Positions 1,073 to 25,884 of a DNA stretch of 64,000 nucleotides are shown here, piece after piece. This DNA comes from Arthrobacter sp. ERGS1:01 (GTDB taxonomy: Bacteria; Actinomycetota; Actinomycetes; Actinomycetales; Micrococcaceae), in contig NZ_CP012479.1 in assembly GCF_001281315.1 (NCBI RefSeq), forward strand, positions 62,001 through 126,000, read 5' to 3'. Position numbers and translations under genes: made by a program. The notes under the pieces are model-generated. The model saw nothing but the letters and a program-made list of their open reading frames with translations. It ran no database searches and was not told the DNA's origin. Every line of letters starts with the position of its first letter. Positions within the stretch are counted from its first letter, which is position 1.

Positions 1073-1277
1073 TGTCGCCGCCCGTTTCGATGCCGTTGAC
1101 AGCAGCAAAAGCCTCCCGGAGCTCGTCCATTCCGGCGCGAAAGTCGCCAAATGCCAGGGCAACAGCCGGTTCGTCCACTTGGGCAAGATCGTCGCCGACG
1201 AGGTCGGCGACGGCGCCGAATTGCTCCGGAGTCAGCCCCCTGACGGTGCGCGCGCAGCCGGTCTCGTTGGCCGTCAT
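1065..1277 (-). CDS. Small 70-aa protein between amidohydrolase and amidase, possible AtzG-like partner
   Basis: This acidic 70-residue protein has no signal peptide or membrane segment. Its start overlaps the stop of the upstream amidohydrolase by 4 bases (ATGA) and its end overlaps the amidase start by 8 bases, which argues that it is a real, coupled gene. In the cyanuric acid pathway the amidase AtzE needs a small partner, AtzG (DUF4089), encoded next to it. Position, size and acidic helical character fit that role. I cannot show sequence homology by eye, so the AtzG comparison is an inference from context. Confidence 0.65.
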   Translation of the reverse strand: MTANETGCARTVRGLTPEQFGAVADLVGDDLAQVDEPAVALAFGDFRAGMDELREAFAAVNGIETGGDND

Positions 1278-3689: not shown

Positions 3690-4409
3690 TCAGACGGCTG
3701 CGAGCAATCGACCCCAGCCCGGGATGGGCGCAGATGTGCCCGCTAGGCGGAGAAGCTCCCACACCGTGGCCACGGCGCTGTCAATGACTGGAATACCGAA
3801 CTCGGCCTCAAACTCTTCCACGAGGTAGCCGGAGCGGAGATTGGTGCCAATGCAGACAACAGCCTCGGCGCCGTCAACAAACGCCGGTCGCATGAGGCTG
3901 GCAATCCGGTCCCTGTCCAGGCGGGCAATCTCGGGATTTGAAAGATCCAGCCCCGGAGTCGAAGTTGCGACCACCTGGATACCGCGACGCCCATATTCCT
4001 TGGCGATGAGCGGCGGGATGGTGGCAGGCCCTGGAAAGACGACGGCCACACGGGACAATCCGAGTGCCTCCAGGGCTGCAACGACTGCAAGGGACGCCGT
4101 GGTGGCCGGCGCCCCGGCGGAATCGGAAAGCTGTTCGCACAGCCGCCGGTCGGCGTCGAGCCCCACCCACGTGCCCGAGGTGCCGTGGAAGGCGACGGCC
4201 TCGGCGGACACATCGGACAAGAGCGCGGGTGCGTCGCCCAGGATGGAGGCGCCGATTGTGTCGCCGAGGCTCGGCGGGAGGCGAAAGCGGCTGTAGTGGA
4301 CGCCGACGTCGGGGCGCCCCGTGAGCATGGCGGCAGTGAGGGTCTCGGCGTTGGAATTCGACGACGGGACCAGCACGCCCAGGCGGAACGACGGCCCAGG
4401 CGCCGCCAT
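3690..4409 (-). CDS. Maleate cis-trans isomerase / Asp-Glu racemase superfamily protein, catalytic cysteines apparently absent
   Basis: The 239-residue protein starts with the family's substrate-binding motif VPSSNSNAET (residues 14-23) and has the two-domain racemase pattern, with ASLAVVAALEAL and PVIDSAVATVWELLR. In maleate isomerase and arylmalonate decarboxylase relatives, cysteines sit in the two active-site loops. Here the loops read FHGTSGT (Gly76) and CIGTNLRS (Gly188), with Cys186 displaced by two positions. It is the last gene of the long operon. Its start overlaps the regulator's stop by one base (TAATG). It may be a non-isomerising member such as a decarboxylase or binding protein. 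Confidence 0.8.
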   Translation of the reverse strand: MAAPGPSFRLGVLVPSSNSNAETLTAAMLTGRPDVGVHYSRFRLPPSLGDTIGASILGDAPALLSDVSAEAVAFHGTSGTWVGLDADRRLCEQLSDSAGAPATTASLAVVAALEALGLSRVAVVFPGPATIPPLIAKEYGRRGIQVVATSTPGLDLSNPEIARLDRDRIASLMRPAFVDGAEAVVCIGTNLRSGYLVEEFEAEFGIPVIDSAVATVWELLRLAGTSAPIPGWGRLLAAV

Positions 4410-5029
4410 TAGTGGGCCCGGCCCAGCGACGGCGGGGTTGAGATGGCAACCATGACGGCGGCCGAATCGGTCCGGTTATGCCACCAATGGGGGAGCGAGG
4501 AGTCGTAGGTCAGGCTGTCTCCGGCCTCGAGGGAGAACTCTTGACCGCCGACCGTAGCGACGAGCGAACCGGACTGGACGATCACGCATTCCTCACCCTC
4601 GTGCGAGTCGGAGGAATTTGCGCCGTCGAAGTGGGCCGGAATGGTCATGCTGACCACGCCGAGCTTCCGCTCGGTGTCCGGAACAATCAGTTCCATGACG
4701 ACGCCCTGTGACGGGACCTCAATCCGTCGCCGGTCGGCCTTGCGCACAAGCATGTTGTGCCGGTCCTCGGGCGGTTCGTTGAACATGGTTGCGAGCGGCA
4801 GGTCCAGTGAGCTGGCCAGGCGCAACAGTGTGGCGAATGACGGGTTGCCGATTCCCCGTTCAATCTGGCTGATCAGCCCGGCGCTGACGCCCGCGCGCTC
4901 GGCGAGGTCCTCAACGGTAAACCGGCCCACCCGGCGCTCCCGGATGGTCGCGCCAATCTTCGCAATCCAAAAATCGCGGTCCGTGGCGTCGCCATTGCCG
5001 TTGGCCGTGACGGTCGGAGATTCCCCCAT
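4409..5029 (-). CDS. XRE-family regulator with C-terminal cupin domain (PuuR-like architecture)
   Basis: The 206-residue protein has an N-terminal helix-turn-helix (FTVEDLAERAGVSAGLISQIERG, about residues 34-56) and a cupin ligand domain (SHEGEECVIVQSGSLVATVGG to the SLPHWWHN segment). This is the layout of PuuR/SutR-type regulators, which sense small metabolites. The ATG at 5029 follows an AAGGAG with 6-base spacing and is preferred; an upstream ATG at 5101 overlaps the aldolase stop (ATGA) and would add 24 residues. It is the only regulator inside the catabolic operon, so it is the natural candidate to bind the repeated promoter motif described elsewhere. Confidence 0.88.
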   Translation of the reverse strand: MGESPTVTANGNGDATDRDFWIAKIGATIRERRVGRFTVEDLAERAGVSAGLISQIERGIGNPSFATLLRLASSLDLPLATMFNEPPEDRHNMLVRKADRRRIEVPSQGVVMELIVPDTERKLGVVSMTIPAHFDGANSSDSHEGEECVIVQSGSLVATVGGQEFSLEAGDSLTYDSSLPHWWHNRTDSAAVMVAISTPPSLGRAH

Positions 5030-5097
5030 CCAGAGCTCCTTCGACGATTTTCGGGTGGCGTTCGCGTATCCGGGAACGTTGCCCATCGCTGTTGTCT

Positions 5098-5823
5098 TCA
5101 TGCGTTTCGTGAAGCCGCGTATGCGGCCAGGAGCGAGGCGAGCTCCCGCTCCCAGTAGATCACACAACGGTCCGCCCCGCGTGCGAAAGCTTCATCCGCC
5201 CGGGCCGAGCTCGGGGCGGGCAAACCGATGCTGTGCCCGGCGCCGCGCACCGTGTCCACGACGTGCTGCACCGCCTTGTCCACGGCGTTGCCGTCCGCGC
5301 GACCTGTTCGTTGGAGGTCGCTGAGCAGGTCGGTTGTTCCCAGCCATCCGCCGCCGAAAGCCTCCGAAGCGGCAAAGTCCGCGGCGTGGTCGACGGCGTC
5401 GACCGTTTCGAAAAGCACACTCAGCGCGGGCGGCTCGCCGAAGTCGGATCCGAACCCGGAAGCGAAGGAAACTTGCCGTGACCGCCGGCCTTCGGGCGCG
5501 TAGCGAACGGCCTCGGCCGCTCGTTCGAGCTCCTCGACATGGCGCAAATGGGGCAGGACCAGGGCCTGGGCGCCCGTGTTGGCATAGGCGACGAGGGTGT
5601 TGGCTTCCAGGTCCGGAACCCGGACGGACACGCGGACGCCGGTGCCGCGCAATTGCTGGACGGCGCCCGCGCATTGGTGGACCGTCAGGGACGTTTGCTC
5701 CGCGTCGAGAATTACGAAGTCCATGCCGGTGTGGGCGATGATGGCCAGCAGCGTTGGGGTGGGGTCTGCGGTCAGGAGCCCGACCTTTCGGCCCGACTCG
5801 CGTTCAATGGGGACTGTTGGCAT
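5098..5823 (-). CDS. HpcH/HpaI aldolase-citrate lyase family protein
   Basis: The 241-residue TIM-barrel protein resembles 2-oxo-acid aldolases of the HpcH/HpaI class II family. Visible signatures are MDFVILDAEQTSLT near residue 34 (metal/acid-base region), VRVPDLEANTLVAYANTGAQALVLPHLRHVEE, and FETVDAVDHAADFAAS. Such enzymes cleave 2-keto-4-hydroxy acids or similar, consistent with a late step after the ring nitrogens are removed. It sits between the cupin gene (52-base gap) and the XRE-cupin regulator. The typical Glu in the FETVDA motif (metal ligand region) is present. Confidence 0.85.
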   Translation of the reverse strand: MPTVPIERESGRKVGLLTADPTPTLLAIIAHTGMDFVILDAEQTSLTVHQCAGAVQQLRGTGVRVSVRVPDLEANTLVAYANTGAQALVLPHLRHVEELERAAEAVRYAPEGRRSRQVSFASGFGSDFGEPPALSVLFETVDAVDHAADFAASEAFGGGWLGTTDLLSDLQRTGRADGNAVDKAVQHVVDTVRGAGHSIGLPAPSSARADEAFARGADRCVIYWERELASLLAAYAASRNA

Positions 5824-5875: not shown

Positions 5876-6298
5876 TCACTCGTCCTGGATGAATTCCCAG
5901 TCGGCGGGCTTGCTCACGCCCACCACGAGTTCAACCGGATCGTCCGTGTCATTCCAGATGCCGTGCCGAAGCCCGCGGGGAATGTAGATGCCATCGCCGG
6001 GCCGGGCACGGTGTTCCTCGTCACCAAGGTAGACAAGGGGTGTCCCGGAAATGACAACGTAGAACTCCGACGCGTCCGGGTGGTGATGGCACAGGTGACG
6101 CTGCCCGGCCAGGATCCGCCCCCAACTCACGCACAGGTCGTCCGAGTCGCTGAGCCCGCGGGAGATCAAGGTTGAGACCAGCCCTTCATCCCGCTGCCCG
6201 TTCAGGCCAATGGAACTAAGCTTCTCAAACCCCTGGTCATGGATGTTGTGGACAAGCCGGGATAGATCGGCGGCTCGCATGGTGTCCGGGGCGGTCAT
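5876..6298 (-). CDS. Single-domain cupin protein
   Basis: The 140-residue cupin has the first motif HLCHHHPDASEFYVVISG and a second motif PGDGIYIPRGLRHGIWN, with several histidines that could hold a metal. Its ATG at 6298 overlaps the stop of the deacetylase (ATGA), so translation is coupled. Possible roles are an isomerase, a dioxygenase or a ureidoglycolate-lyase-like step. The sequence does not decide between them. It lies between the PuuE-like and aldolase genes in the same operon. Confidence 0.82.
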   Translation of the reverse strand: MTAPDTMRAADLSRLVHNIHDQGFEKLSSIGLNGQRDEGLVSTLISRGLSDSDDLCVSWGRILAGQRHLCHHHPDASEFYVVISGTPLVYLGDEEHRARPGDGIYIPRGLRHGIWNDTDDPVELVVGVSKPADWEFIQDE

Positions 6299-7218
6299 GA
6301 CGCAACAGTTTCGAACAGGCCATTCTGGGTCTCCGCCGGGCCGTTCTCCAGCCACCAACGTGCGATCTGTTCGCGCGTGGCGAACCATACTCCGTGCTGG
6401 GCCAGTGCGTATTCGATGAACTGTCGGACGCCGAAAGCGACGCTGGGGCGGCCGCCAATGCGAAGGTGGATGCCCACGGACATCATCTTTGGCACGGTCT
6501 CGCCCTCAAGCAACAGGCAGTCCAGGGTGTCCTTGAGGACGCTGAAGAATTCGGCCCCGGTGCCGAGGCTGCCACCACCCCAAAACCTGCCGTCGTTCGT
6601 GTCTCCGGAGTAGGGCACCACCAGGTGCCGGGCCGGGCCTGCCTGGACAAAGTACGGCAGGTCGTCCGCATAGGAGTTGGAGTCGTAGAGGAATCCTTCC
6701 TCGGCGAGTATGGCCCGGGTGTTCTCCGTGATGTCGTCGCGGACGTACCAGCCCACGGGCGTGACGCCGGCGGCGGCCTGGATCGCGGCCTTGGCTGCCC
6801 GGATCTCGGCACGCTCTTCTTCCGGGGACATGCCGACCATTCCGCGCCAGCGGTAGCCGTGACCGCAGATCTCGTGCCCGTCGCGGGCAATCGCCAATGC
6901 GGCGTCGGGGTGCTTTTCGAGGGCCTCGCCACACGCCATGAAAGTTGCCGGCACCTCATACTGGCGGAACATGTTCAGAAAGCGCCACAGGCCCACGCGT
7001 GGCCCGTATTCGAAGAACGACTCCTTCATGAGGTTTCTTCGCGAGGGGTCCGAGGACCACCCCCCGAAGATCACGATGTCCTCGTCCGAGTCGTCGCCCG
7101 CCGCGATGGATCGTTCCGCGCCCTCTTCGTAGTTGACGACGAGGGAGACGGCGACCTTCGCGCCACCGGGCCATCCAACCACAGGCGGGTTTTCCCCGTA
7201 TCCGATGAGGTCTCGCAT
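6295..7218 (-). CDS. Polysaccharide deacetylase family protein, PuuE allantoinase-like (copy 2)
   Basis: The 307-residue protein begins MRDLIGYGENPP and has SLVVNYEEGAERS, GHEICGHGYRWRGM and the VGIHLRIGGRP motif, so it belongs to the same PuuE-like CE4 group as the gene at 2760. The chosen ATG at 7218 follows GAGGAG with 7-base spacing; an upstream extension to 7284 would run into a clear promoter. The two copies differ in the first metal-site segment (ADHGYHWDTH versus CGHGYRWRGM), which suggests different substrates rather than simple redundancy. It is the first gene of the sub-operon that ends with the regulator and the maleate-isomerase-like gene. Confidence 0.88.
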   Translation of the reverse strand: MRDLIGYGENPPVVGWPGGAKVAVSLVVNYEEGAERSIAAGDDSDEDIVIFGGWSSDPSRRNLMKESFFEYGPRVGLWRFLNMFRQYEVPATFMACGEALEKHPDAALAIARDGHEICGHGYRWRGMVGMSPEEERAEIRAAKAAIQAAAGVTPVGWYVRDDITENTRAILAEEGFLYDSNSYADDLPYFVQAGPARHLVVPYSGDTNDGRFWGGGSLGTGAEFFSVLKDTLDCLLLEGETVPKMMSVGIHLRIGGRPSVAFGVRQFIEYALAQHGVWFATREQIARWWLENGPAETQNGLFETVAS

Positions 7219-7250
7219 TGTCTCACTCCTCGTGGTTCTCAGTTGATGAT

Positions 7251-7283
7251 TTTCATTATATTGATCTTGCTTCATTTTATCCA
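7251..7283 (-). promoter_or_regulatory. Promoter with overlapping tandem operator-like sites upstream of PuuE-like copy 2
   Basis: On the minus strand a perfect TATAAT (7255-7260) is preceded, with a 17-base spacer, by TGGATA (7278-7283), a 4/6 match to TTGACA. A copy of the island motif, TTTCATTATATTGA (7251-7264), covers the -10 box, and a weaker copy (7270-7283) lies 19 bases away over the -35. On the minus strand the core reads AATATAATGAAAA, close to the PuuR operator AAAATATAATGAACA as I recall it. A repressor bound here would block the promoter. Confidence 0.65.
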
Positions 7284-8086
7284 CGTCGCGCGTCTTCGTA
7301 GACTTTTCGATGGGCGGCCAGGGAGGTCCGGAGCATGCCGTCCACGTCGTCGATCAGGTTCCCGTGGGCCGGCCCGATAAACGCAGTCGGCAGCTTGTTG
7401 AGGACATCCTCGATGGCCTGGAAGGCGGAACTGACGTCGACGAACTTGGTCCAGTACAGGGCCCGCCCCGTTCCGTAAGCGGCCTGCTCCACCGACGGCG
7501 GCACGGGCATCTCCCCCGAAAGGAGCCGGCATTGTCCGGGACGGTGCGCAGGCTCATCCTCGCCGTCCGGATCGGGCGTTTCGTGGATGAATGAGAAACC
7601 GTCGGAGACGAACAAGATGCCGGCTCCGTCGTCGTGCCCCCAAAGCGTATTTTCCAGGTCCCGGATATGGGCGGGCAGGAACCTAAAGGTCCTGTCGCCA
7701 AGATCAATCATGTCGCCTGGGCGTTTCGCATCGAAGCGGTCGGAAAACTCGGGGAAATGCATGAAATAGTCCCGGGTGTCCCCGACGACTCGCGCCTTCG
7801 GATAGCGCTGCAGCAGCGCCGGCAGGTTTCCCGCATGGGGAATCTCGGGATGGGTGGGGAAGATGTAGTCCAGCGTCCTGCCGGCAAGTGCGCCATCCAG
7901 CTGGGCCAAAACCCTGTCCACGTGGGCAGGATCGCCCGTGTCTACGAGAATTGAGGCGCCGGACCCAACCACCAGGTAGGACGAGACATGGTAGTGGACC
8001 TCTTCGCCCTGGGAATAGGCGGACAAGCACCCGCCCAGCCAATATGCACCGTTGGCAACGCGGCGCGCAGTCGTGTCATCGTTCAT
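7277..8086 (-). CDS. Metallo-beta-lactamase-fold protein, ligand-complete member (pair 1, B type)
   Basis: The 269-residue protein resembles the oxygen-binding diiron (flavodiiron/ODP-like) branch of the MBL fold. It has SILVDTGDP, then THPEIPHAGNLP with His79, Glu81 and His84 (the H-x-E-x-x-H form), a possible further ligand His140 in FLPAHIRDLENTLW, Asp162 in VSDGF, and His241 in IGPAHGN. The usual Asp of HxExDH is a proline. Its start overlaps the stop of the A-type partner by 4 bases, so the two are probably made in equal amount. There is no flavodoxin domain, so it is probably a hydrolase rather than an NO/O2 reductase. Confidence 0.82.
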   Translation of the reverse strand: MNDDTTARRVANGAYWLGGCLSAYSQGEEVHYHVSSYLVVGSGASILVDTGDPAHVDRVLAQLDGALAGRTLDYIFPTHPEIPHAGNLPALLQRYPKARVVGDTRDYFMHFPEFSDRFDAKRPGDMIDLGDRTFRFLPAHIRDLENTLWGHDDGAGILFVSDGFSFIHETPDPDGEDEPAHRPGQCRLLSGEMPVPPSVEQAAYGTGRALYWTKFVDVSSAFQAIEDVLNKLPTAFIGPAHGNLIDDVDGMLRTSLAAHRKVYEDARRG

Positions 8087-8844
8087 CGTGCGCCCACTTC
8101 CTCAAGGCAAACAGCGAGCAGTTCGGCTTCCCGCCTACACGCATCGGCCCCCGTGACGGGCCACCCGTAACCGGGCCCAATGGCCGCTACGCTGCGCTCG
8201 CGAACAATTTGACGGACATCCGCCGCGATGGAATGGGTGTCGGCGTCGCCAAACCAACGGAACTTGTGCAGCCCGGCCATTGGATCTGCCGAAGCGGTGT
8301 CCTCGACTGGGGGAGCCAAGTGCGTGAATGCATCCGAGGTCAAGAGGGCGCCCGAGGCGGGATCAAACACCCACAGTGTTGGCAACAGGCGCAGCAGCGG
8401 TGAAATGAAGTGCAAGGTGATGCCCTCGCGCACCTCCACCTCCCGCCAGGTTCCCGGTTCAACCGCGATTCTCTGCACGGACGCCGTCGAACGGGGCACC
8501 GTGATGCCGCCCGTGTACCAAACCGTGTCGATGCGACGGTGTTCCTCGATGGCTGGAATGTTCAGGCAGCACTCCATCTCAGTTCGCGTAAGAACAATTG
8601 ACAGCGGCTCATCAGTCTCCAGCAACTCGTCCAACTGCGCGAGGATTTCCGCCTCGTGCAGGCGAATGCCGGTGTCCACGAGAACGGCGCCGTGATCGCC
8701 CTTGATGAGATAGGCGCTCACAGGCTCCCGCCGTCGCACTCCGGGAGGGCACCAGCTGGTGCCCTCATCAAGGAGGATCTCCCCGCCCAGGCGGTGGACG
8801 CGGCCGGTCAAATTTGCGGGCCGGGTGGTTGCTGGAATGTTCAT
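8083..8844 (-). CDS. Metallo-beta-lactamase-fold protein lacking most metal ligands (pair 1, A type)
   Basis: The 253-residue protein keeps the fold markers AVLVDTGIRLHEAEIL and LLTSDAFTH, but the metal motif reads LTRTEMECCLN: Arg87 for the first His, Glu89 kept, Cys92 for the second His. The position of the later His is Leu, and the C-terminal HGN is YGW. It is therefore probably non-catalytic or uses a different site. The ATG at 8844 follows GGGAG with 7-base spacing, 19 bases after the isochorismatase-like gene. It overlaps the ligand-complete partner downstream by 4 bases. The same A-B order recurs at 12101-12949/11275-12090. Confidence 0.8.
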   Translation of the reverse strand: MNIPATTRPANLTGRVHRLGGEILLDEGTSWCPPGVRRREPVSAYLIKGDHGAVLVDTGIRLHEAEILAQLDELLETDEPLSIVLTRTEMECCLNIPAIEEHRRIDTVWYTGGITVPRSTASVQRIAVEPGTWREVEVREGITLHFISPLLRLLPTLWVFDPASGALLTSDAFTHLAPPVEDTASADPMAGLHKFRWFGDADTHSIAADVRQIVRERSVAAIGPGYGWPVTGADACRREAELLAVCLEEVGAR

Positions 8845-8863
8845 TACCGGACTCCCACGCGAC

Positions 8864-9529
8864 TCAGGCGGCGTCCCAGACAGCGATGGCGTCGTCAACG
8901 CTGCAGACATCGTGACGGGCGCGCATGACCGTGAGGGATGCATCGTGGATGGTTGAGTCGTAGGCACCCACGGCATCTTCGAGAAGCACGGCATAAAAGT
9001 CGTTATGCACAGCATCGCGCAGCGTCGCCTCGACGCAACCGCCGGTGGACACGCCCACGAGAGCGACGGACTCTATTCCCTGGCTTCGCAAAAGAAGCCC
9101 GAGTTCGGTGGCAACAAAGGCGCTGGGCCGCCGCTTGGTAATAATGGACTCGCCCTCGATCGGAAGGCATTCCACGCAGAACTCGGTGCCCGGATCATCC
9201 TTGACGCTCAGTTTCCCGAGGTCGATGGGGCGGCCGTTAGCGGCCGTGTACAGCGCTCGCAGCCAGGCAGCCGGCGAGCTTGCACCGTCGGGCAGGTTCT
9301 CAACCCGGATGTGGAACACCGGCACCCCGTTCCGCCGGGCGGCCGCAATGGCCTGGCCGCAGCGGGCCCGGACTTGGGGCATCATGCCCAGATCGTGTCC
9401 CGAGTCCCCAATCGCACCGCCGGGGAAAACTGCACCCTTTTGCATATCGATGACTACGAGCCCGGTAGTTGCCGGATCGAGCAGCTCGCCAAGGGTGTCA
9501 CGGACTTGTTTTCCGCAGATTTCGATCAT
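8864..9529 (-). CDS. Isochorismatase-family cysteine hydrolase (amidase)
   Basis: The 221-residue protein carries the catalytic triad of the isochorismatase/nicotinamidase superfamily: Asp28 in VVIDMQKG, Lys132 in TKRRPSAF, and Cys165 in STGGCVEATLRDA. Members with these residues hydrolyse amides or N-carbamoyl groups, such as nicotinamide, maleamate, N-carbamoylsarcosine or ureidoacrylate. Release of ammonia from a carbamoylated or amide intermediate fits this operon. With a maleate-isomerase-like gene in the same operon, a maleamate-type substrate is one option. It lies between the solute-binding protein and the first MBL pair. Confidence 0.9.
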   Translation of the reverse strand: MIEICGKQVRDTLGELLDPATTGLVVIDMQKGAVFPGGAIGDSGHDLGMMPQVRARCGQAIAAARRNGVPVFHIRVENLPDGASSPAAWLRALYTAANGRPIDLGKLSVKDDPGTEFCVECLPIEGESIITKRRPSAFVATELGLLLRSQGIESVALVGVSTGGCVEATLRDAVHNDFYAVLLEDAVGAYDSTIHDASLTVMRARHDVCSVDDAIAVWDAA

Positions 9530-9597
9530 GATGACCTTCTTTGTAGTCGAGGTCCCGGTGCCGGCAAAGTGCCGGCACCGGGAGGGTTGGGGCTGGG

Positions 9598-11181
9598 TCA
9601 GCTACCCAACGCGTTGAAGTACACCTGGCCGTTTGACAAAGGGGTGGCCCCGGTGATGCCCGCCTTCGTGGCCATCATTCCGCGAGTCTCGACGAGCGAG
9701 AGGATCGGGGCACCGGCATCGACGACGGCGGTCATTTCCTTGATCAGTTCGGTGCGCTTGGCCGTCTGGTCCTGCGGAGTCGCCGCAAGCTGCGTACGGA
9801 TCTGGTCGAACTTCGGGCTGCTCCACCCCGTGGTGTTGCTCGGGGCGTTGCCTGCGTAGTACGCGAAACTGTAGAAGGCCGGGTCGGCGATGACAATCGG
9901 TTCCGAATAGAGAACGGCCTCATACCGGCCCTGGAGGAGCGCAGTGGAGAAGTCGGTCGGGCTGGCGATGTTCTGCAGGGTGACGTTAATGCCGACCTCG
10001 CTGAGCATGGACTGGACCAGCACGGAGGACTTGTTTGCCACCGGTCCGGGGCGGGTTGCACTGTAGCTCAGTGACAAATTAAAGCCCTTTGCGTACCCTG
10101 CCTCGGCCAGCAGCTTCTTCGCTCCGGCGATGTCGAATTTGTAGGTGGCTGATGGATCACCGCCAGGGAAAGTGGACTGCGAGGCCTTTCCATACCCGGC
10201 GTAGGCTCCCTTGACCAGGGCGTTCCGATCAATCGCCATTGAAATGGCTTGCCGGACACGGACGTCGGAGAGTGGTCCTGTCTTGGTGTTGAACATCAAC
10301 GTGTCACGGGTTGAGCTCGGGCAGTTGATCACGGATACGCCAGGGGACGTTTCCAGCGACGAGTACTGGTCGTACTCGAAACCATTGGCCACCTGGGCTT
10401 CGCCGGACTGGATGAGCTGGCTTCGGGTGGACGTGTTCGGCACGGCCTTGACCACGACCCGCTTGACCGAACCGCGCGTGCCCTCCCATTTGGGATCGGC
10501 GGTGACTGTCAGCGAAATACCAGGAGTGAATTCCTCAAGGTCCCATCCGCTGTAGTCGGCCAAGTTCTTCGACAGCCAGTTATTCGCCGTGGGATCCGCC
10601 GCTGTCACGTGCTTCTTCGCTTCGATGCTGTCGTGGATGTAGAACAGGTTGTTTTGCAGCGACTCGATGCTGAAGGACGTCAGGTTGGTCGTGTTGAGTT
10701 CGATGGTCCTGTCGTCGATGATCTTCGCCAGGTTCTTGACGTCGAAGCCGCTGCTGGACAGTGTCCCCTTCATGACCGGCTGGCGGACCATCCCGATCTG
10801 CAGGCTCCACAGTACGTCCTCCGCGGAGAGCGTATGGCCGAACTGGCTCGTCAGCTTCTTGAGCTTGACGATAATCCCCTTCTTGTCCGGTGCGACGGTG
10901 GCGCTTTCGGCAAGCCGGCCGTTGACCTCCGTGGTGGGTTGGCCGCACGGATTGCCGGCCGTGGCGGTGGTCTTGTATTGCAGCAGTTGCGAGCCAAGTC
11001 CGCTGAGCACCACATGCGAGGCGCTTCCGCCCCAGGGTGCCGGCGTGAGGCTGTCGGGCAGGGAACTGACTGCGATGACAACGCTGTCATTCGTGGCTGC
11101 AGGGGCATCGCCGCTGCAGCCGGTCAGGGAAACGGCCAGGACAGCAACCAGGCCGGCGGAAAATAAATGCAAGGGTTTCAT
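9598..11181 (-). CDS. ABC transporter solute-binding lipoprotein, family 5 (Dpp/Opp type)
   Basis: The 527-residue protein has a lipoprotein signal peptide ending in the lipobox LTGC (Cys22), followed by the long two-lobed family 5 pattern. Recognisable parts are DSLTPAPWGG, LSAEDVLWSLQIG, SDVRVRQAISMAIDRNALVKGAYAG and AKKLLAEAGYAKGFNLSLS. It captures a peptide- or opine-like solute outside the membrane for the permeases and ATPases at 12981-16606. Four kilobases of operon separate it from DppC, and two MBL genes lie between it and the permease DppB, which suggests later insertion of the MBL pair. Confidence 0.92.
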   Translation of the reverse strand: MKPLHLFSAGLVAVLAVSLTGCSGDAPAATNDSVVIAVSSLPDSLTPAPWGGSASHVVLSGLGSQLLQYKTTATAGNPCGQPTTEVNGRLAESATVAPDKKGIIVKLKKLTSQFGHTLSAEDVLWSLQIGMVRQPVMKGTLSSSGFDVKNLAKIIDDRTIELNTTNLTSFSIESLQNNLFYIHDSIEAKKHVTAADPTANNWLSKNLADYSGWDLEEFTPGISLTVTADPKWEGTRGSVKRVVVKAVPNTSTRSQLIQSGEAQVANGFEYDQYSSLETSPGVSVINCPSSTRDTLMFNTKTGPLSDVRVRQAISMAIDRNALVKGAYAGYGKASQSTFPGGDPSATYKFDIAGAKKLLAEAGYAKGFNLSLSYSATRPGPVANKSSVLVQSMLSEVGINVTLQNIASPTDFSTALLQGRYEAVLYSEPIVIADPAFYSFAYYAGNAPSNTTGWSSPKFDQIRTQLAATPQDQTAKRTELIKEMTAVVDAGAPILSLVETRGMMATKAGITGATPLSNGQVYFNALGS

Positions 11182-11274
11182 GATCCATACACCGGTTTCT
11201 ACGGGAAAGTCGGGAGCAAAGGACAGGGCGAAACGAAGGCTTCAATTCGCCAAAGGCCCAGACAGCGGGCGGTG

Positions 11275-12090
11275 TTAGTAGCGGTAGGCCTGCTTGTGGC
11301 CGGCCCGGATGACGGGTTCGACGTCTCCGATGTTGGTGATGACGTTGCCGTGGGTGGGGGCAACCGTTCGCACTCCGAGATCTGCAAAGGATTCCAGTAC
11401 GCGGTCATAGACACGGTCGGCATCGTTGACGAACCGCGCCCAGTACAGGGCGCTCCCCGTGAAGAACGCGGCGTTTTGCACCGTCACCGGCGAGGAGAGC
11501 TCGGTGGTGGTCAATCCGCATTCGCCGGGAAGGTGCACCGGATCCTCGTCGTCGAGTTCGGGGCGGTGCATGTAGCAAAATCCGTCGGCCGTGAACATTG
11601 TCCCGGCCTTGGGGACGAAGCCCCACTGGGTGTTCGGTAGGTCGCGGATCAGGGCCTCCGAGACGATGAATTCATAGCCGTCGCCAAGGTCGATCCGGTC
11701 GCCGGGAACGCGGGCGTGCAGGTTCGCCTCGATCTGCGGGTAGAACAGGTGGTAGTCGCGAACGTCGCCAATCACTTGCACATTGGGGTACTTCTGCACG
11801 ATTCGGGGCAGGTTCCCCGTGTGGGGGAGCTCGGGGTGGGTCGGGAAAACGTAGGCGAGTTCCCGGTCTCCCAAGAGTTCGTCCAGCTTCGCCGAAAGGA
11901 TTGGCCAGCTGGACGGGTTGCCTGTGTCCACGAGGAGGGATGCCGCCCCGCCCTGTACCAGGAACGTCGAGTTGTGCCCGTGGATGACCCTTCCGTCAAC
12001 GTGGAAGGGAAGGCAGGAACTCAGCCAGGTCACACCGTCGGCGACGGTGCGGGGGAGGTCGCTGCTCATTGTCTCAACCAGATCTTCCAT
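11275..12090 (-). CDS. Metallo-beta-lactamase-fold protein (pair 2, B type)
   Basis: The 271-residue protein is a paralogue of the B-type protein at 7277. It has SLLVDTGNPSS, the metal motif THPELPHTGNLP with His85, Glu87 and His90, Asp169 in FTADGF, and His247 in VAPTHGN. The counterpart of His140 of pair 1 is Leu148 (EALIRDLPNTQW), so its metal site may hold one metal or differ. The ATG at 12090 follows GGGAGGAACC; an internal ATG at 12069 has a poor ribosome site. It begins 10 bases after the A-type partner. Confidence 0.82.
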   Translation of the reverse strand: MEDLVETMSSDLPRTVADGVTWLSSCLPFHVDGRVIHGHNSTFLVQGGAASLLVDTGNPSSWPILSAKLDELLGDRELAYVFPTHPELPHTGNLPRIVQKYPNVQVIGDVRDYHLFYPQIEANLHARVPGDRIDLGDGYEFIVSEALIRDLPNTQWGFVPKAGTMFTADGFCYMHRPELDDEDPVHLPGECGLTTTELSSPVTVQNAAFFTGSALYWARFVNDADRVYDRVLESFADLGVRTVAPTHGNVITNIGDVEPVIRAGHKQAYRY

Positions 12091-12100
12091 GGTTCCTCCC

Positions 12101-12949
12101 TTACCTTGCCTGCGACACGAGGTCGGCGTGTTGTGAGCTCAACGCTGTAAGCATGAAGTCGAGATGGCGTCGCACCACGTCATGGCCGCGCAGCACGCAG
12201 CCCCGGGACGGTGCGATGATCTCGGGATCAAGCTCCTGGAATTTCGCGGACAGCCACTCGCGCAGCGGTTCGCAAGTGGCGCGGGGGACCCATTCGTACT
12301 TCGCGTAGAGATGGCCGGCCACCTGTTCGGGAGTTGTGGTGTCCGCTGTGGTGGAGTCAATAATGCGGGCCCCGTCCGGACGATCCATGACGCCATGGGT
12401 GAAGGTGTCCGAGGTGAAGAGCGTGCCGGTTGCGGCATCCCAACCCCAGAAGGTCATGAGGAGTCGCAGGAGCGGGGCCTCGATTTCCAGGATTCGTCCC
12501 GGGCCGATCTCGATGCTCGCGGCTCGGGCAAGGGAATCGCCCTCGCCCGAGCGTTCGGCATCGATCTGGTGCCGGCGGCCCCGAAGCGCCTCGCGGCTCA
12601 GATCCTCGAAGGCGTCGAAGGGATTGATGACGCCGCCCGTGAACAGTCGTTCCAGGTCAAAGCGGCTGGCGATCGGTTCGAGGTTTGAGACGCAGTCCAT
12701 TTCCGCCCGGGTGAAGAAGGCGGACAAGCGTCCGCCTTCGCCCACGAGGCCGGCGAGGTCGTTGAGGATTTCGGAGCTGTGGACAGCCAGGCCCGAATCG
12801 ATAAGAAGGCGTGAACTGCCTTCGGACAGTAGATAGCAGTTTGAGGGCTGGAAGCCGGTGGCGCCGGCAGGAACCCAGCTCACCCGGCCGTCAAGGGGGA
12901 TTGATCCACCCAGGACTATCAGCTCGTCATTCTTTAATTTAGTGAACAT
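12101..12949 (-). CDS. Metallo-beta-lactamase-fold protein lacking most metal ligands (pair 2, A type)
   Basis: The 282-residue protein parallels the A-type at 8083: RLLIDSGLAVHSSEIL, then FTRAEMDCVSN with Arg81, Glu83, Asp85 and Cys86 in place of H-x-E-x-D-H, PLLRLLMTFWGWD where a His is expected, Asp181 in FTSDTF, and SRG instead of HGN. The first codons (TTCACTAAATTAAAG) are unusually AT-rich and coincide with an operator-like site at 12932-12945. A promoter just upstream would place the transcription start at or next to the ATG, so the mRNA may be leaderless. Confidence 0.8.
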   Translation of the reverse strand: MFTKLKNDELIVLGGSIPLDGRVSWVPAGATGFQPSNCYLLSEGSSRLLIDSGLAVHSSEILNDLAGLVGEGGRLSAFFTRAEMDCVSNLEPIASRFDLERLFTGGVINPFDAFEDLSREALRGRRHQIDAERSGEGDSLARAASIEIGPGRILEIEAPLLRLLMTFWGWDAATGTLFTSDTFTHGVMDRPDGARIIDSTTADTTTPEQVAGHLYAKYEWVPRATCEPLREWLSAKFQELDPEIIAPSRGCVLRGHDVVRRHLDFMLTALSSQHADLVSQAR

Positions 12950-12984
12950 GTCTTCAATCTATTGATGGAGGGTTTGACTGTCAA
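12932..12984 (-). promoter_or_regulatory. Promoter with two operator-like sites upstream of MBL pair 2
   Basis: On the minus strand TTGACA (12979-12984), a 17-base spacer and TAGATT (12956-12961) form a good sigma-70-type promoter, 6 bases before the ATG at 12949. The motif copy CTTCAATCTATTGA (12952-12965) covers the -10, and a second copy, CTTTAATTTAGTGA (12932-12945), begins 20 bases further on, inside the first codons. The two lie on one face of the helix, which suits cooperative repressor binding. The -35 box overlaps the stop of the upstream permease gene. Confidence 0.68.
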
Positions 12985-14075
12985 GAGGTTTTTACGCTGT
13001 TATTTTCGCTGCTGTGCCCGGCCGCAGCCGTGGGCAAGACCTGACGACGGCGACCGCGCGGACGGATGGCCAGCTCGCGGGCCCGTGGGTCGAGCAAGGT
13101 GATGAGGGTGTCGAGGGCGACGTAGCCGAGCAGGCTCATGGCGCCCATGACGAGCACGAATCCCTGGATTACGGGCAAGTCGCCCTTCAGGACGCCGTCG
13201 AGCGACCAGCCGCCGATGCCCGGCCAGGAGAATACGCTTTCAATGATTGCCGAGCCGCTGAGGGCAGCGGCGAATAGCAGCACCATGTAGGTCATGAGTG
13301 AGGCCCTGACGTCACTAAGTGCATATCGGTACACCTGCATCGGTCGCAGTCCGCAGGCTCTCGCGAACTCGATTTGCGGCGAATTCAGGATTTGCAGGAG
13401 GCCGGTGCGAACAGTCTTGCCAAACGGTGCCGCGAAGAAGACACCGATCGTTATGACGGGCAGTGCCGCCCTGCTCATGACGGATGCGAGGATGGCCCAT
13501 TTGCCGCCAATGACCGCATCCACCAATAGCGACCCGGTGACAGTTGGTGGAGGGATGTCCGATGCTGAGATCATGCCCAGGGGTGCCGGTGCAATGTGCA
13601 GCTTCTGGTAAAAAATGAAGAGCAGTAGCAGGGCGAGGACGAATTCGGGCATTGCCATGAGTACGGAAACACCCACCGTAAACGTCTTGTCCGGGAGGCG
13701 GCCGCTGCGGTACGCGGCAAAGGTGCCGATCGCAACTCCGAACACGAGCGCAAGGAGGAGCCCAGGCACCAGGTAGACGAGCGTATTGGGCAGCCGTGTC
13801 CACAAATCCTGGCCCACGGAATTCCCGGTAAAGAAGGACTTGCCCAGATCGCCCCGCAGCACGTGGCCCATGTAGTCCAGATATCTTTCCCCAAATGGTT
13901 TATCGAGACCCAGCTGGGAGTTGATGCGTGCAATGTCGCTCGGTGTGGCGTATTCGCCCAGCAGGGCCACGGCCGGATCACCGGGCAAGAGTGAGACAAG
14001 GCCAAAGCTCAACGACATTAGGCCCAGGAGAAGGGCCGCCGCGATGGCCAGTCGCGACGCAATGTATCGAATCAT
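12981..14075 (-). CDS. ABC transporter permease, DppB/OppB family
   Basis: The 364-residue inner-membrane protein opens with MIRYIASRLAIAAALLLGLMSLSFGLVSLLPGDPA, the standard DppB first helix and periplasmic loop. Six membrane segments are apparent, with the cytoplasmic coupling segment EFARACGLRPMQVYRYALSDVRAS. It forms the channel with the DppC-like permease at 15719. The ATG overlaps the ATPase stop by 4 bases. Finding DppB last (order C-D-F-B) is unusual; dpp operons normally start with the binding protein and DppB. Confidence 0.92.
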   Translation of the reverse strand: MIRYIASRLAIAAALLLGLMSLSFGLVSLLPGDPAVALLGEYATPSDIARINSQLGLDKPFGERYLDYMGHVLRGDLGKSFFTGNSVGQDLWTRLPNTLVYLVPGLLLALVFGVAIGTFAAYRSGRLPDKTFTVGVSVLMAMPEFVLALLLLFIFYQKLHIAPAPLGMISASDIPPPTVTGSLLVDAVIGGKWAILASVMSRAALPVITIGVFFAAPFGKTVRTGLLQILNSPQIEFARACGLRPMQVYRYALSDVRASLMTYMVLLFAAALSGSAIIESVFSWPGIGGWSLDGVLKGDLPVIQGFVLVMGAMSLLGYVALDTLITLLDPRARELAIRPRGRRRQVLPTAAAGHSSENNSVKTS

Positions 14076-14908
14076 GCGGTCACCACCTTGGGGGGAATGA
14101 GTGGGTCGGGGTCGGCGACATCGCCTGGTGGGATGTAGCTCAGTGGCGGCATCGCGGCCGCCAGGAGCTTTTGTGTGTACGGTTCCCGTGAATCATTGAG
14201 GACGTCATGGGCCGTCCCGACTTCGATGAACCGGCCCCTGTGCATGACGGCGACCTGTGAGCAAAAATGCCGGACCGTGTCGATGTCGTGGGAGATGAAG
14301 ACGTACGTGAGGCCGCGGGCCCGCTGCAATTCGGAGAGCATCCGCAGTATTGAGGCGCGAATTGTCAGGTCGAGTGAAGATGTTGGCTCATCAAGGACCA
14401 CAATTGTCGGATCCGTCACGAGCGCCCTGGCGATCCCCACGCGTTGTTGCTGGCCGCCGCTGAGGTTGGCCGGACGCCTGTCGAGGAACTCTGCGGACAG
14501 GCCGACTTCCTCAAGCGTCCGGACCACCTTTTCCTGACGTTCGGACCTGGACTTGAACGTCCGGGCGACGATGAGCGGCTCTTCCACAATCTGGCGAATG
14601 CTCAGCCGTGGATTGAGCGAGGCGAATGGTTCCTGGAACACAATTTGCCAATGTTGGCGCTGCTTTCGCAGGGCCGCAGCCCCCAGTGCCCGGATGTCCT
14701 GCCCATCGAGCAGGATGGAACCCGAATCCGCCTCGTGGAGCCGCAGGAGGAGCCGTCCCAGCGTCGATTTGCCGGAGCCGCTTTCGCCGATGATCCCCAG
14801 GCAGGTGCCGGCTTCGACGGAGAAGGAGACGTTGTCAACGGCTGCGACCACCCGTCCGCCGGGAGCCTGGAATGTCTTGAAGAGATCCTTGACCTCGATT
14901 ATTGCCAT
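14072..14908 (-). CDS. ABC transporter ATP-binding protein, DppF/OppF family
   Basis: The 278-residue ATPase has Walker A GESGSGKST near residue 41, Q-loop VFQEPFASLNPRLS, signature LSGGQQQRVGIARAL and Walker B IVVLDEPTSSLD, then the switch histidine in FISHDID. The extra C-terminal segment (YTQKLLAAAMPP) is typical of oligopeptide-type ATPases. It powers import with the DppD-like partner, whose stop is one base upstream of this start. It overlaps the DppB start by 4 bases. Confidence 0.93.
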   Translation of the reverse strand: MAIIEVKDLFKTFQAPGGRVVAAVDNVSFSVEAGTCLGIIGESGSGKSTLGRLLLRLHEADSGSILLDGQDIRALGAAALRKQRQHWQIVFQEPFASLNPRLSIRQIVEEPLIVARTFKSRSERQEKVVRTLEEVGLSAEFLDRRPANLSGGQQQRVGIARALVTDPTIVVLDEPTSSLDLTIRASILRMLSELQRARGLTYVFISHDIDTVRHFCSQVAVMHRGRFIEVGTAHDVLNDSREPYTQKLLAAAMPPLSYIPPGDVADPDPLIPPKVVTA

Positions 14909-14909
14909 C

Positions 14910-15722
14910 TCAGGGCCTTCCGGATTCGACCAACGCGGTGGGGCGGACCACGGAACTGAGCAGCGAGGCGGTGTATTCGTGCCGGGGCTGGGTAAAGACC
15001 TCGGATACAGGGCCCTGCTCGACGATCTCCCCGTGATACATCACGAGTACCCGCTGGCAGTATTCGGCCACGACACCGAGGTCATGGGTGACGATCATCA
15101 TCGATCGCCCGCATTCGACGGTGAGCCGGCGAAGCGTGTCGAGGACCTGGCGCTGCACAGTGAGGTCAAGTGCCGTGGTTGGTTCGTCGGCAATGACGAG
15201 CCGGGGGTTGAGATAGAGCGCCATCGCGATGACAACGCGTTGGGCCATGCCCCCGCTGAGCTCGTGGGCGTAGCCGCGCAGGACCCGGTCCGGTTCGTTG
15301 ACTCCAGTGGCATCAAGGAGATCGAGTGCGCGTTCGCGCGAAGCGGCGTTCACAGGCACCCCGTGGGCCTTGGCGATGTTGGCGAACTGCTTCTCGATCC
15401 GCACCACCGGATTCAGGGCGCTGAAGGGGTTCTGCGCGACGAATCCGATGTCACGGCCGCGGATTTCGCGGATGTCGCGTTCGCGCAACTGGAGCAGGTT
15501 CTTCCCTTCAAAGTCAACGCTGCCGGAGGCCACGCGTCCGGGCGGCACGAGCAATCGCGTCACCGAGCGGACGATGGTCGACTTCCCCGATCCCGATTCC
15601 CCGACAATGCCCACGATCTCGTTGCTTCCGACGTCGAAGGAGATGCCGTGAAGGGCCCGGACTACGCCGCTGCGGGTAGTGAATTCCGTGACAAGGTCGC
15701 GAACCCTCAGGCCGTCGTTCAT
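14910..15722 (-). CDS. ABC transporter ATP-binding protein, DppD/OppD family
   Basis: The 270-residue ATPase has Walker A GESGSGKST, Q-loop VAQNPFSALNPVV, signature LSGGMAQRVVIAMAL, Walker B LVIADEPTTALD and the C-terminal FTQPRHEYTASLLSS peptide-transporter extension. The ATG at 15722 overlaps the DppC stop (ATGA) and is preferred over an upstream in-frame start. With DppF it forms the heterodimeric motor of the importer. Confidence 0.93.
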   Translation of the reverse strand: MNDGLRVRDLVTEFTTRSGVVRALHGISFDVGSNEIVGIVGESGSGKSTIVRSVTRLLVPPGRVASGSVDFEGKNLLQLRERDIREIRGRDIGFVAQNPFSALNPVVRIEKQFANIAKAHGVPVNAASRERALDLLDATGVNEPDRVLRGYAHELSGGMAQRVVIAMALYLNPRLVIADEPTTALDLTVQRQVLDTLRRLTVECGRSMMIVTHDLGVVAEYCQRVLVMYHGEIVEQGPVSEVFTQPRHEYTASLLSSVVRPTALVESGRP

Positions 15723-16606
15723 GCTGCACGCTCCACTCGTTCGATCCGGTTTTCCAAGGCGCCCGCCAGTATGTTGAAGGAGCCGATGGCTAAGAGCATC
15801 GCAAGGGCAGGAAAGGTCGAAGCCCACCAGTCGCCGCGGATCAGCATGCTGAACCCATCAGCGATCATTCCGCCCCAGCTCGGTTGGGGCGGCTTTGAGC
15901 CGACGCCCAGGAAATTGAGGGCGGCAATGGTCCCGAGCGCATTTGCGGCCGTGAGTGTTGCCTGAACCAATACGACGCCATAGGCGTTGCGGAAGATGTG
16001 GTTGAACGCCACCCGCAGCGGTGAGCAGCCGGTGGCGATGGCCGCTTCGACATAGCGGGTGGAGCGCAGTGAAAGAGCCGCAGCGCGGGAGAGCCGCACG
16101 AACCTAGGGGCGCCAACCACGGCAAGAGCCAGGATGACGTCGAGCGGCGAACCGCCCATGAGCTGGATGCCGACGACGGCGATGACGATTGTTGGAAGCG
16201 CGGCAAAAGCGTCAACGATCCGCATCAGCACGTCGCCAACCCTCCCGCTCGTGGCAAAGAGCCCTATTGGAACACCGACGACGAGAGCCAGGGCCGTTGC
16301 CCCGAGGGCAATCGGGAGATCCAGCTTGGCTGCCTCGATGGTCCGTGAGAAAACGTCCATTCCGTTGCCGTCGGTGCCGAACCAGTAGCTCGCGTTCGGT
16401 GCGATGGCCAGGGCGTTGGGATCGGGCCGCAGCGGGTTGTGCGGGTAGTGCAGGAACAGTGCCAGCAGCGGCAGGCCGATGATGATGGCTGCGGCAAGGG
16501 CGGTCATGAAGTTGCTTGACCGGGCGGCCACTTTGGCCCTTCCCCGCCCGGCCCAGCCGGATGCACGCAAACCTGGTGATGTTCGGGGGAGGCCCTGGAC
16601 GCTCAT
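15719..16606 (-). CDS. ABC transporter permease, DppC/OppC family
   Basis: The 295-residue inner-membrane protein has an N-terminal cytoplasmic tail, a first helix (TALAAAIIIGLPLLALF), the periplasmic segment YWFGTDGNGMDVFSRTIEAAK characteristic of DppC, and the coupling motif EAAIATGCSPLRVAFNHIFRNA. The ATG at 16606 overlaps the stop of a 24-codon upstream ORF (ATGA), so translation is probably coupled to it. It is the first long gene of the importer operon. Confidence 0.92.
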   Translation of the reverse strand: MSVQGLPRTSPGLRASGWAGRGRAKVAARSSNFMTALAAAIIIGLPLLALFLHYPHNPLRPDPNALAIAPNASYWFGTDGNGMDVFSRTIEAAKLDLPIALGATALALVVGVPIGLFATSGRVGDVLMRIVDAFAALPTIVIAVVGIQLMGGSPLDVILALAVVGAPRFVRLSRAAALSLRSTRYVEAAIATGCSPLRVAFNHIFRNAYGVVLVQATLTAANALGTIAALNFLGVGSKPPQPSWGGMIADGFSMLIRGDWWASTFPALAMLLAIGSFNILAGALENRIERVERAA

Positions 16607-16677
16607 GACACCCCCTGGGCGGGCCGGCCGGTCACGCCGTCGTACCGGATCCGGTAGAAGTCCAACGGTTGGGACAT
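16603..16677 (-). CDS. 24-codon leader ORF coupled to the DppC-like permease
   Basis: The ATG at 16677 follows AAGGAGGAGGAACCTCTT, a strong purine-rich ribosome site. The frame encodes MSQPLDFYRIRYDGVTGRPA plus four residues and ends in a TGA that overlaps the permease ATG. The permease start has no good Shine-Dalgarno of its own, so translation probably enters through this ORF. I do not recognise the peptide. It could be a coupling leader or the remnant N-terminus of a lost gene. Confidence 0.55.
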   Translation of the reverse strand: MSQPLDFYRIRYDGVTGRPAQGVS

Positions 16678-16955
16678 AAGAGGTTCCTCCTCCTTGACTG
16701 TGGCAGGTCATATCTGAATCAAAGAATCGTCACTTTATTGAAGCCATGGCCTCGAGCTTTTGGAAAGGGAGTACACCTTCGAATTACTCGCGAGTAATCT
16801 CAGGCTGAAAAAATGCCCACATTCCGCGCTTGTGTTCGATGGATCATTTTCCATCCCGGTTGATTCAGCCATTGACATCGCTTCAAACGATCTTCAATAT
16901 AGTGATACATACCCTACGTTGTTGAAGTTGAACTTGGAAGAGGACTGAGATAAAG
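16678..16955. promoter_or_regulatory. Divergent control region between the importer operon and the aminotransferase operon
   Basis: This 278-base region holds two nearly identical 14-mers in opposite orientation: CTTCAATAAAGTGA on the minus strand (16730-16743) and CTTCAATATAGTGA on the plus strand (16893-16906), matching in 13 of 14 positions. TTGACA at 16873-16878 is followed by TATAGT (16899-16904, 20-base spacing) or CAATAT (16896-16901, 17-base spacing), a candidate plus-strand promoter overlapped by the motif. The region is AT-rich compared with its surroundings. The paired sites suggest one regulator controls both directions. Confidence 0.6.
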
Positions 16956-17930
16956 ATGTCGACGTTTTATGAAGAAGCTGCCCTGACCCGTACAGAAACC
17001 GTGGGGTCACAGCCGAAAGTCCAGTACCTTTTGCACGATGGGGAGCTCGTGAACTACGACGACGCCCGACTCCATGTGTTGAGCACAACCCTCAAATACG
17101 GGGTTGGCGTGTTCGAAGGCTTCCGCGCCTACTGGAGCGAGGACGACCAGGAGCTCTATGCTTTCAGGGTTGCCGACCACATGCGTCGGCTCGTCGATTC
17201 GATGCGCGTCGTGGAGATTGACGGCCCACAAGACATTGGCGCCCTGTCGGAGCAGTTGCTGGGGCTCGTGCGGGCCAACAACCTGCGCGGAAACCTTCAC
17301 ATGCGGGCCCAGGTCTTCGTGGATTCCGCCGACGGCAAACCGGAGGACAAAGGGCCCGCAACCGTCTTCATGGCCGCGATCCCCATGGGGAACTACTTCG
17401 GGTCCACCGGTCTGGACGTGCAGATCAGCAGCTGGGCCAGGCTCTCGGACCGGTCCATGCCGCCAAGAATCAAATCGATCGCCAATTATCAGAACGGCCG
17501 TCTGGCGATGCTCGAGGCGCGACGCAACGGCTATGACGCGGCGCTTCTCATGACCGAATCGGGACACGTCGCAGAGGGTGCCGGCTACAACGTTTTCATG
17601 GTGCGGAAGGGCCGGCTTTGCACGCCGCCGAGCACGGACAGCATCCTTGAAGGAATCACCCGTGACACGGTGCTGCATCTGGCCCGCACCGAATTGGGGC
17701 TCGACGTCGACATCAGGCCGATTGACCGGACCGAACTGTATTCGGCCGATGAAATCTTCGTGTGCGGGAGCGCCGCCGAGGTCAACCACGTGACGGCCGT
17801 GGACCGGACCCCGATCGGAGCCGGCGGTGTGGGCGAGGTGACTGCGAGGCTCCAGCAACTTTACCGGCAGGCAGTGGTGGGCCGGGTCGCGGCCGACCAG
17901 AACTGGACCCTCCCGGTCTACGGCGGCTAG
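16956..17930 (+). CDS. Class IV aminotransferase (branched-chain aminotransferase/IlvE-like)
   Basis: The 324-residue PLP enzyme shows the fold type IV markers: YGVGVFEGFRAY near residue 50, the Schiff-base lysine in PRIKSIANYQNGRL near 172, and the EGAGYNVFMVRKG motif near 207, followed by ILEGITRDTVLHLA. The family transfers amino groups to or from branched-chain or D-amino acids. Placed first in an operon with formamidase and hydantoinase genes, it probably handles the amino acid formed when the ring is opened, not housekeeping valine/leucine synthesis. The formamidase follows after 4 bases. Confidence 0.9.
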   Translation: MSTFYEEAALTRTETVGSQPKVQYLLHDGELVNYDDARLHVLSTTLKYGVGVFEGFRAYWSEDDQELYAFRVADHMRRLVDSMRVVEIDGPQDIGALSEQLLGLVRANNLRGNLHMRAQVFVDSADGKPEDKGPATVFMAAIPMGNYFGSTGLDVQISSWARLSDRSMPPRIKSIANYQNGRLAMLEARRNGYDAALLMTESGHVAEGAGYNVFMVRKGRLCTPPSTDSILEGITRDTVLHLARTELGLDVDIRPIDRTELYSADEIFVCGSAAEVNHVTAVDRTPIGAGGVGEVTARLQQLYRQAVVGRVAADQNWTLPVYGG

Positions 17931-17934
17931 CGGC

Positions 17935-18852: not shown

Positions 18853-18866
18853 ACACGGAGGCCTCC

Positions 18867-25836: not shown

Positions 25837-25884
25837 GTGGTGCTTCCTGAATTATGCCCGTCATTGGGCGGTTAAGGGTGCGTG

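Follow-up and report, generated by a model that had tools for sequence, protein, structure and literature searches.

The pairing of an active with a metal-less subunit is already known among proteins of the metallo-beta-lactamase (MBL) fold, with Flv1/Flv3, Flv2/Flv4, INTS9/INTS11 and CPSF100/CPSF73 as described cases. Passages of PMC4390876 describe Flv1 and Flv2 as lacking the canonical ligands and Flv2/Flv4 as a heterodimer, and an excerpt of PMC6616624 places two arginines among the putative ligand residues of Flv1B. In the passages of PMC7980224 that name the motif HxHxDH for INTS11, INTS9 is the metal-less MBL partner of this protein and has NYHC in place of the motif. An excerpt of PMC7666581 describes the stand-alone protein ODP of Treponema denticola as coupled to a chemoreceptor. 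Here we analysed a stretch of 64,000 nucleotides from Arthrobacter sp. ERGS1:01 (contig NZ_CP012479.1, positions 62,001 to 126,000; hereafter the window), which carries two pairs of adjacent MBL genes. In each pair, the gene of a putatively metal-less protein (A1 or A2) is followed by the gene of a protein with a ligand set (B1 or B2). We propose, with a probability of roughly 45%, that each A-B pair forms one enzyme, a putative heteromer of a catalytic B and a metal-less A, and probably a hydrolase. The four open reading frames (ORFs) and their motifs are as follows.

12101..12949, minus strand: A2, MBL-fold partner predicted to be metal-less, 282 amino acids (aa); ORF at these coordinates
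12692..12712, minus strand: A2 motif TRAEMDC, residues 80-86, with Arg81 at the place of the first metal His; translation and alignments
11275..12090, minus strand: B2, MBL-fold partner with the ligand set, 271 aa; ORF, Pfam Lactamase_B 38.1 bits (cut-off 22.7)
11821..11841, minus strand: B2 motif THPELPH, residues 84-90; translation
8083..8844, minus strand: A1, MBL-fold partner predicted to be metal-less, 253 aa; ORF, Pfam Lactamase_B 21.1 bits, slightly under the cut-off of 22.7
8569..8589, minus strand: A1 motif TRTEMEC, residues 86-92; translation
7277..8086, minus strand: B1, MBL-fold partner with the ligand set, 269 aa; ORF
7835..7855, minus strand: B1 motif THPEIPH, residues 78-84; translation and alignment

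All four ORFs were present on the minus strand and are transcribed in the order A then B in both pairs, in agreement with an earlier note on this DNA that had described four such genes in two pairs of the same order. A1 and B1 overlap by four bases (8083-8086). An alternative upstream ATG would extend A1 to 9015; the lengths of its homologues favour 8844. B1 and B2 shared 43% identity over 258 aligned positions, and A1 and A2 shared 29% over 259. Within the pairs, alignments of A with B covered part of the proteins, with 31% identity over 137 positions and 24% over 158, and a comparison of the A-family profile with the B-family profile gave a probability of 99.9% (E 7.6e-31). Database labels on these proteins are 'flavorubredoxin' and 'MBL fold metallo-hydrolase'.

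To compare the metal-site positions, we aligned the A family (77 rows) and the B family (82 rows) jointly with 5 flavodiiron rows and with 14 rows that come from the gene pairs of haloarchaea and Paracoccus. The alignment contains near-copies, because both database matches and proteins from fetched loci were included; column positions are given in B1 numbering. At position 79, the first metal His was present in all 82 B rows and was replaced by Arg in all 77 A rows. Position 143 was Asp in 81/82 B rows and His in 5/5 flavodiiron rows, and this column was deleted throughout A (77/77). Glu occupied position 81 in 81/82 B rows and 67/77 A rows. At position 83, we found Pro in B (77/82), Asp or Glu in A (73/77) and Asp in the flavodiiron rows (5/5); position 84 was His in B (82/82), and Cys (50/77) or Ser (13/77) in A. 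The bridging Asp at position 162 was conserved in both B (81/82) and A (77/77), and the last His at position 241 was found in 81/82 B rows and 25/77 A rows. Further residues kept in B were H168 and H181 (81 of the 82 rows each) and C186 and E192 (80 each).

These columns suggest a plausible two-metal site in B, consisting of H79, E81, H84, D143, D162 and H241. The central observation of the earlier note holds, but the B site is non-canonical too, since Pro replaces one flavodiiron ligand Asp and Asp replaces one His. The same note held that A has lost the metal ligands. The Arg at position 79 and the deleted column 143 bear this out, but the wording is too strong, because three acidic site residues persist in most A rows. 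Similarly, the late His of the HGN motif is replaced in most A rows, but not in those 25 that retain it, and the reported Leu in place of a later His turned out to be an effect of alignment register at the position of D143. HxHxDH is the motif of class B beta-lactamases. Neither partner carries it: B has HxExPH, and A has RxExDC or RxExEC-like motifs.

Neighbouring genes were investigated in 31 records, comprising the window, five plasmid stretches from a search with A2, 23 loci from a genome scan with the A alignment, and two further genomes. We counted genes with an A-profile score >150 bits, and genes whose final 120 residues were identical were counted once. Each of the resulting 48 A genes adjoined a B gene on the same strand, in the order A-B in 43 pairs and B-A in five. 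A four-base overlap, as in A1/B1, occurred in 13 of the 48 pairs, according to the gene calls of our script. Conversely, in 396 Actinomycetota genomes, with up to six candidates scored per genome, five B genes of at least 275 bits were found, each next to an A gene (5/5), and the next match scored 105 bits. The proposal that A always neighbours B was thereby sustained, and a search for solitary A homologues found none in what was sampled.

Additional pairs, seen by coordinates only, were two in G774 (2/2), a second pair in G100 and one on the Roseomonas marmotae plasmid NZ_CP061097. In 14 plasmid records, a B1 match covered at least 80%; in the 13 that were inspected directly or by coordinates (all but H13), a second MBL gene adjoined the match. 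Pairs were seen, among other lineages, in Actinomycetota and Pseudomonadota and in one bin each of Gemmatimonas and Bacillota; the coverage outside Actinomycetota is what the plasmid and genome scans returned. The adjacency of A and B holds while other neighbours change and the gene order flips. The same cluster occurs in 16 of the 31 records (L005, L012-L026), all from Micrococcales relatives, which lowers the number of independent lineages. Moreover, the cluster is patchy, since among 396 genomes of the window's own order A was detected at E 1e-14 in two (the window's own and G774). A phage origin was rejected, as A2 had no match among 50,697 phage records. One protein that we read by eye as a candidate fusion (P0101; 476 aa) had one A-type domain and a long N-terminal stretch, in which no B motif was seen.

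A is under purifying selection. In Nei-Gojobori comparisons between relatives, dN/dS was 0.02-0.14 for A2 (six comparisons) and 0.13-0.33 for A1 (five comparisons; the sixth was saturated), with values of 0.05-0.13 for B1 and 0.00-0.15 for B2 (six comparisons each). The low ratios and the invariant substitution rule out decay or a pseudogene, and they confirm that the substitution is maintained, as had been argued from the two A proteins of the window. In a tree of 12 pairs, A formed one clade and B another (support 100/100). A1/B1 grouped with one pair of Amycolatopsis orientalis DSM 43388 (100/99), and A2/B2 with another pair of this strain, located on a different contig (100/99); B2 grouped further with Rhizobium and a Bacillota bin. 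A recent tandem duplication of one pair is unsupported, because the two window pairs group with two different A. orientalis pairs. The window thus unites two old types in one operon, which suggests that the pairs probably perform two different steps. The A and B distance matrices of the 12 pairs were correlated (r 0.68), and 0 of 5000 permutations reached a value as high. Adjacency, selection and tree together imply that the substitution in A is not due to chance.

Structure models of B1 and A2 gave a flavodiiron-type MBL fold for both partners, which supports the fold assignment of the earlier note. The closest folds to both models were flavodiiron proteins and ODP, with ODP chains in both fold lists. 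B1 and B2 are stand-alone MBL domains of the flavodiiron/ODP branch, and A1 and A2 have the same fold. No Pfam match to a flavodoxin domain was obtained in A or B, which are proteins of 253-282 aa. A canonical flavodiiron protein is ruled out by the ligand set and the absence of this domain.

Flv1/Flv3 and Flv2/Flv4, as far as the passages cited above go, resemble the A-B pairs in belonging to the same MBL branch, in combining a partner with canonical ligands and a partner without, and in having their genes paired or in operons. In contrast, Flv proteins have flavodoxin and flavin-reductase domains and reduce O2, whereas A and B consist of the MBL domain alone and are encoded in catabolic clusters, and the ligand set of B, with its Pro and Asp, differs from the canonical Flv set. 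INTS9/INTS11 and CPSF100/CPSF73 also join a metal-less to an active MBL subunit (passages of PMC7980224), but they are eukaryotic RNA-processing MBL/beta-CASP nucleases with extra domains and, as far as searched, have no close sequence relationship to A-B. Like B, ODP stands alone as an MBL domain and belongs to the flavodiiron/ODP branch. B1 passed the cut-off of the Pfam ODP profile (PF19583; 33.7 bits, cut-off 27.2), B2 (17.4) and A1 (16.5) scored below it, and A2 gave no match. Unlike the setting of ODP, no chemoreceptor was present among the annotated neighbours of 11 annotated stretches. A and B share with the active/metal-less pairs that one ligand set is kept and the other replaced, and that their genes co-occur. 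The earlier note knew of no described system of paired catalytic and pseudo-MBL subunits; the four pairs above are such systems. Literature searches in a library of open-access papers listed none whose title or abstract opening describes bare-domain pairs in catabolic clusters, the HxExPH site or the two-site relatives presented below.

Adjacent pairs with a B-type ligand set in both partners are new here. Seven such pairs were found, of which six on haloarchaeal plasmids (Halalkalicoccus, two in Halobaculum, Halocatena and two in Natrinema) and one in Paracoccus seriniphilus. In all seven, both partners kept His79, Pro83, His84, Asp143, Asp162 and His241, and position 81 held either Asp or Glu. 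They have the adjacency, the Pro and the later Asp of B in common with the A-B pairs, but keep the ligand positions in both partners, unlike A. The seven pairs (L084-L089, L006) often lay beside tripartite tricarboxylate, TRAP or ABC transporters. Ligand loss on the A branch is the likely interpretation. The tree does not fix the branching order of the A, B and two-site groups. At position 83, the Asp/Glu of A is similar to the flavodiiron Asp, whereas B and the two-site pairs have Pro; the A branch may therefore predate the origin of this Pro. In view of that residue and the unordered tree, simple descent of A from a two-site partner of the archaeal type was not borne out.

We also offer a wider interpretation, tentatively and with considerable doubt. 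All these pairs may belong to an unnamed two-subunit MBL family, marked by HxExPH and extending from haloarchaea to several bacterial phyla. Both sites would be kept in haloarchaea and Paracoccus, while one bacterial lineage would have acquired an obligate metal-less subunit, its invariant Arg taking the place of the metal. Such pairs would be exchangeable catalytic units, with a chemistry not yet described, that are reused in many small-molecule catabolic clusters.

In order of transcription, the operon of the window encodes ABC permeases and ATPases, A2, B2, a substrate-binding protein, an isochorismatase-family protein, A1, B1, a PuuE-like protein, a cupin, an HpaI-type aldolase, a helix-turn-helix (HTH)-cupin regulator and a member of the arylmalonate-decarboxylase/maleate-isomerase superfamily. 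The neighbours of the two pairs were identified as follows.

16956..20291, plus strand: divergent genes for a branched-chain-type aminotransferase, an FmdA-like and a dihydropyrimidinase-like protein (NCBIfam)
12981..16711, minus strand: ABC transporter, two permeases and two ATPases (ORFs; NCBIfam for 14072-14908, the other three named by eye; conserved neighbours)
9598..11181, minus strand: substrate-binding protein of the peptide/nickel ABC family, between the pairs (NCBIfam below the cut-offs of all named families; conserved neighbour)
8864..9529, minus strand: isochorismatase-family amidase-like protein, nearest to biuret hydrolase (Pfam; NCBIfam below cut-off; 6xjm, E 1.9e-29)
6295..7284, minus strand: PuuE-like protein, a relative of allantoinase/cyclic imidase (NCBIfam 300.9 bits, cut-off 424.6; PuuE allantoinase 3cl6, E 6.5e-79)
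5876..6388, minus strand: cupin-domain protein (Pfam)
5098..5823, minus strand: HpcH/HpaI aldolase-family protein (Pfam)
4409..5167, minus strand: HTH-cupin regulator (Pfam)
3690..4409, minus strand: arylmalonate-decarboxylase/maleate-isomerase superfamily protein (Pfam; 2xed, E 7.8e-12)

In a comparison of 31 loci with the genes of the window, the 16 Micrococcales relatives all had both pairs together with the isochorismatase-like, PuuE-like, HpaI-like and HTH-cupin genes, and 15 of them also had the divergent dihydropyrimidinase-like, FmdA-like and aminotransferase genes. This cluster is conserved in Arthrobacter, Sinomonas and Microbacterium. In fungal nicotinate breakdown, according to passages of PMC9304392, the cyclic imidase HxnM is similar to an imidase of Pseudomonas putida, and PuuE is the closest characterised relative of the structural homologue of HxnM. 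Elsewhere, the pairs were accompanied by other transporters and enzymes, some of them redox enzymes. A pyruvate-type aldolase/CoA ester lyase occurred near the pairs of the window, Roseomonas haemaphysalidis, Agrobacterium, Rhizobium, both Halobaculum and Halalkalicoccus, and was not seen near others; its proximity is not used as evidence, since no background rate was computed.

The occurrence of A and B side by side in many bacteria implies that they are probably two-part enzymes for the breakdown of small imported molecules. In the proposed mechanism, A and B would associate as a heteromer, with metal binding and chemistry in B only. The guanidinium of Arg81 in A would replace the metal cation among E83, D85 and D181 and thereby keep the fold, and A would stabilise B and help to shape its substrate pocket. 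For the window, the probable substrate is a small molecule taken up by import, such as a cyclic imide, a ureide or a lactone-like compound, which the pairs would process jointly with the PuuE-like, isochorismatase-like and aldolase-like proteins. Hydrolysis is favoured over a redox reaction, since A and B have no flavodoxin domain and the profiled genes of the window's operon included no recognisable reductase. We therefore have modest confidence in a hydrolase that would act on small cyclic molecules. The cyclic-amide hydrolysis guessed at in the earlier note draws only on the neighbouring genes, which differ at other A-B loci.

Several observations weigh against a hydrolytic two-part enzyme. 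Neighbours vary among lineages, other A-B loci included, such that a common chemistry is not evident from context, and some other pairs have redox genes close by. Where B has Pro, MBL hydrolases carry an Asp that orients the attacking water, which speaks against a classical hydrolytic mechanism. E83, D85, C86 and D181 remain in A as possible ligands. In addition, most of the counted A genes come from close Micrococcales relatives, the A1 ratio was the highest among seven genes in 4 of 5 comparisons, yet clearly constrained, and shared ancestry by itself yields correlated A and B distances. The redox genes and the closeness of the folds to flavodiiron proteins and ODP would fit a heteromeric redox enzyme, in which the di-iron site of B would act on O2 or NO or in substrate oxidation, with electrons supplied by a separate reductase, and A would be structural or serve docking, as in Flv1/Flv3. 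An NAD(P)/FAD oxidoreductase and a ferredoxin lie near the Rhodococcus pair, an SDR near the Agrobacterium pair, an FAD-binding oxidoreductase beside the Halocatena pair and a Rieske protein beside the Natrinema zhouii pair. However, such neighbours vary between loci, and 2 of the 7 canonical ligands are replaced in B. Together with the missing flavodoxin domain and reductase, this makes a redox enzyme unlikely.

A might instead be held together with B by co-transcription alone, as separate proteins of one pathway, for example an enzyme and a ligand-binding protein or sensor. Entire operons do travel together in the Micrococcales relatives, and ODP, of related fold, is an oxygen sensor in the excerpt of PMC7666581. 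Yet adjacency survives both the change of neighbours and the flip to B-A (5/48) across several phyla, and we regard this possibility as distinctly improbable. The alternative to which we give the least credence is that A is not metal-less, but binds metal in a new mode through E83, D85, C86 and D181, with both subunits active or a shared site. At the corresponding positions Glu (67/77), Asp/Glu (73/77), Cys (50/77) and Asp (77/77) are indeed frequent, but Cys is replaced in 27 of the 77 rows, an invariant Arg stands in the middle of the motif, and the D143 column is deleted in every row. If each A-B pair does form one enzyme with a metal-less A, it would offer a pseudoenzyme partner from prokaryotes that is easy to express, and whose living two-site relatives allow a direct comparison of two sites with one. 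The labels 'flavorubredoxin' and 'MBL fold metallo-hydrolase' would then need correction, and an unassigned step would be indicated in the catabolic cluster of Arthrobacter, Sinomonas and Microbacterium.

Some further features of the cluster and its surroundings were observed. In L026 (Arthrobacter sp. Hiyo8), A2, B1 and some neighbours are in pieces but whole in relatives, which reflects decay or sequencing errors. The protein at 3690-4409 (minus strand) has Gly at both places aligned to two cysteines of maleate isomerase 2xec (HGTSG, CIGTNL), which we take to be catalytic. Among 12 rows in total, HGTSG was the same in 10/10 rows that reach this motif, and CIGTNL in 4/4. An amidohydrolase-family gene (1274-2647, minus strand) and a second PuuE-like gene (2760-3674, plus strand) are found again close to A-B pairs, together in L005 and L032; in addition, L025 has the PuuE-like gene and L027 the amidohydrolase gene. 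A separate set at 24493-29356 (minus strand) encodes an MFS-type transporter, ErtE, which is an N-carbamyl-L-glutamate amidohydrolase (539.4 bits, cut-off 520), and a hydantoinase similar to ErtD that scored below its cut-off (440.1 vs 650); this set suggests the use of hydantoin-propionate-type compounds.

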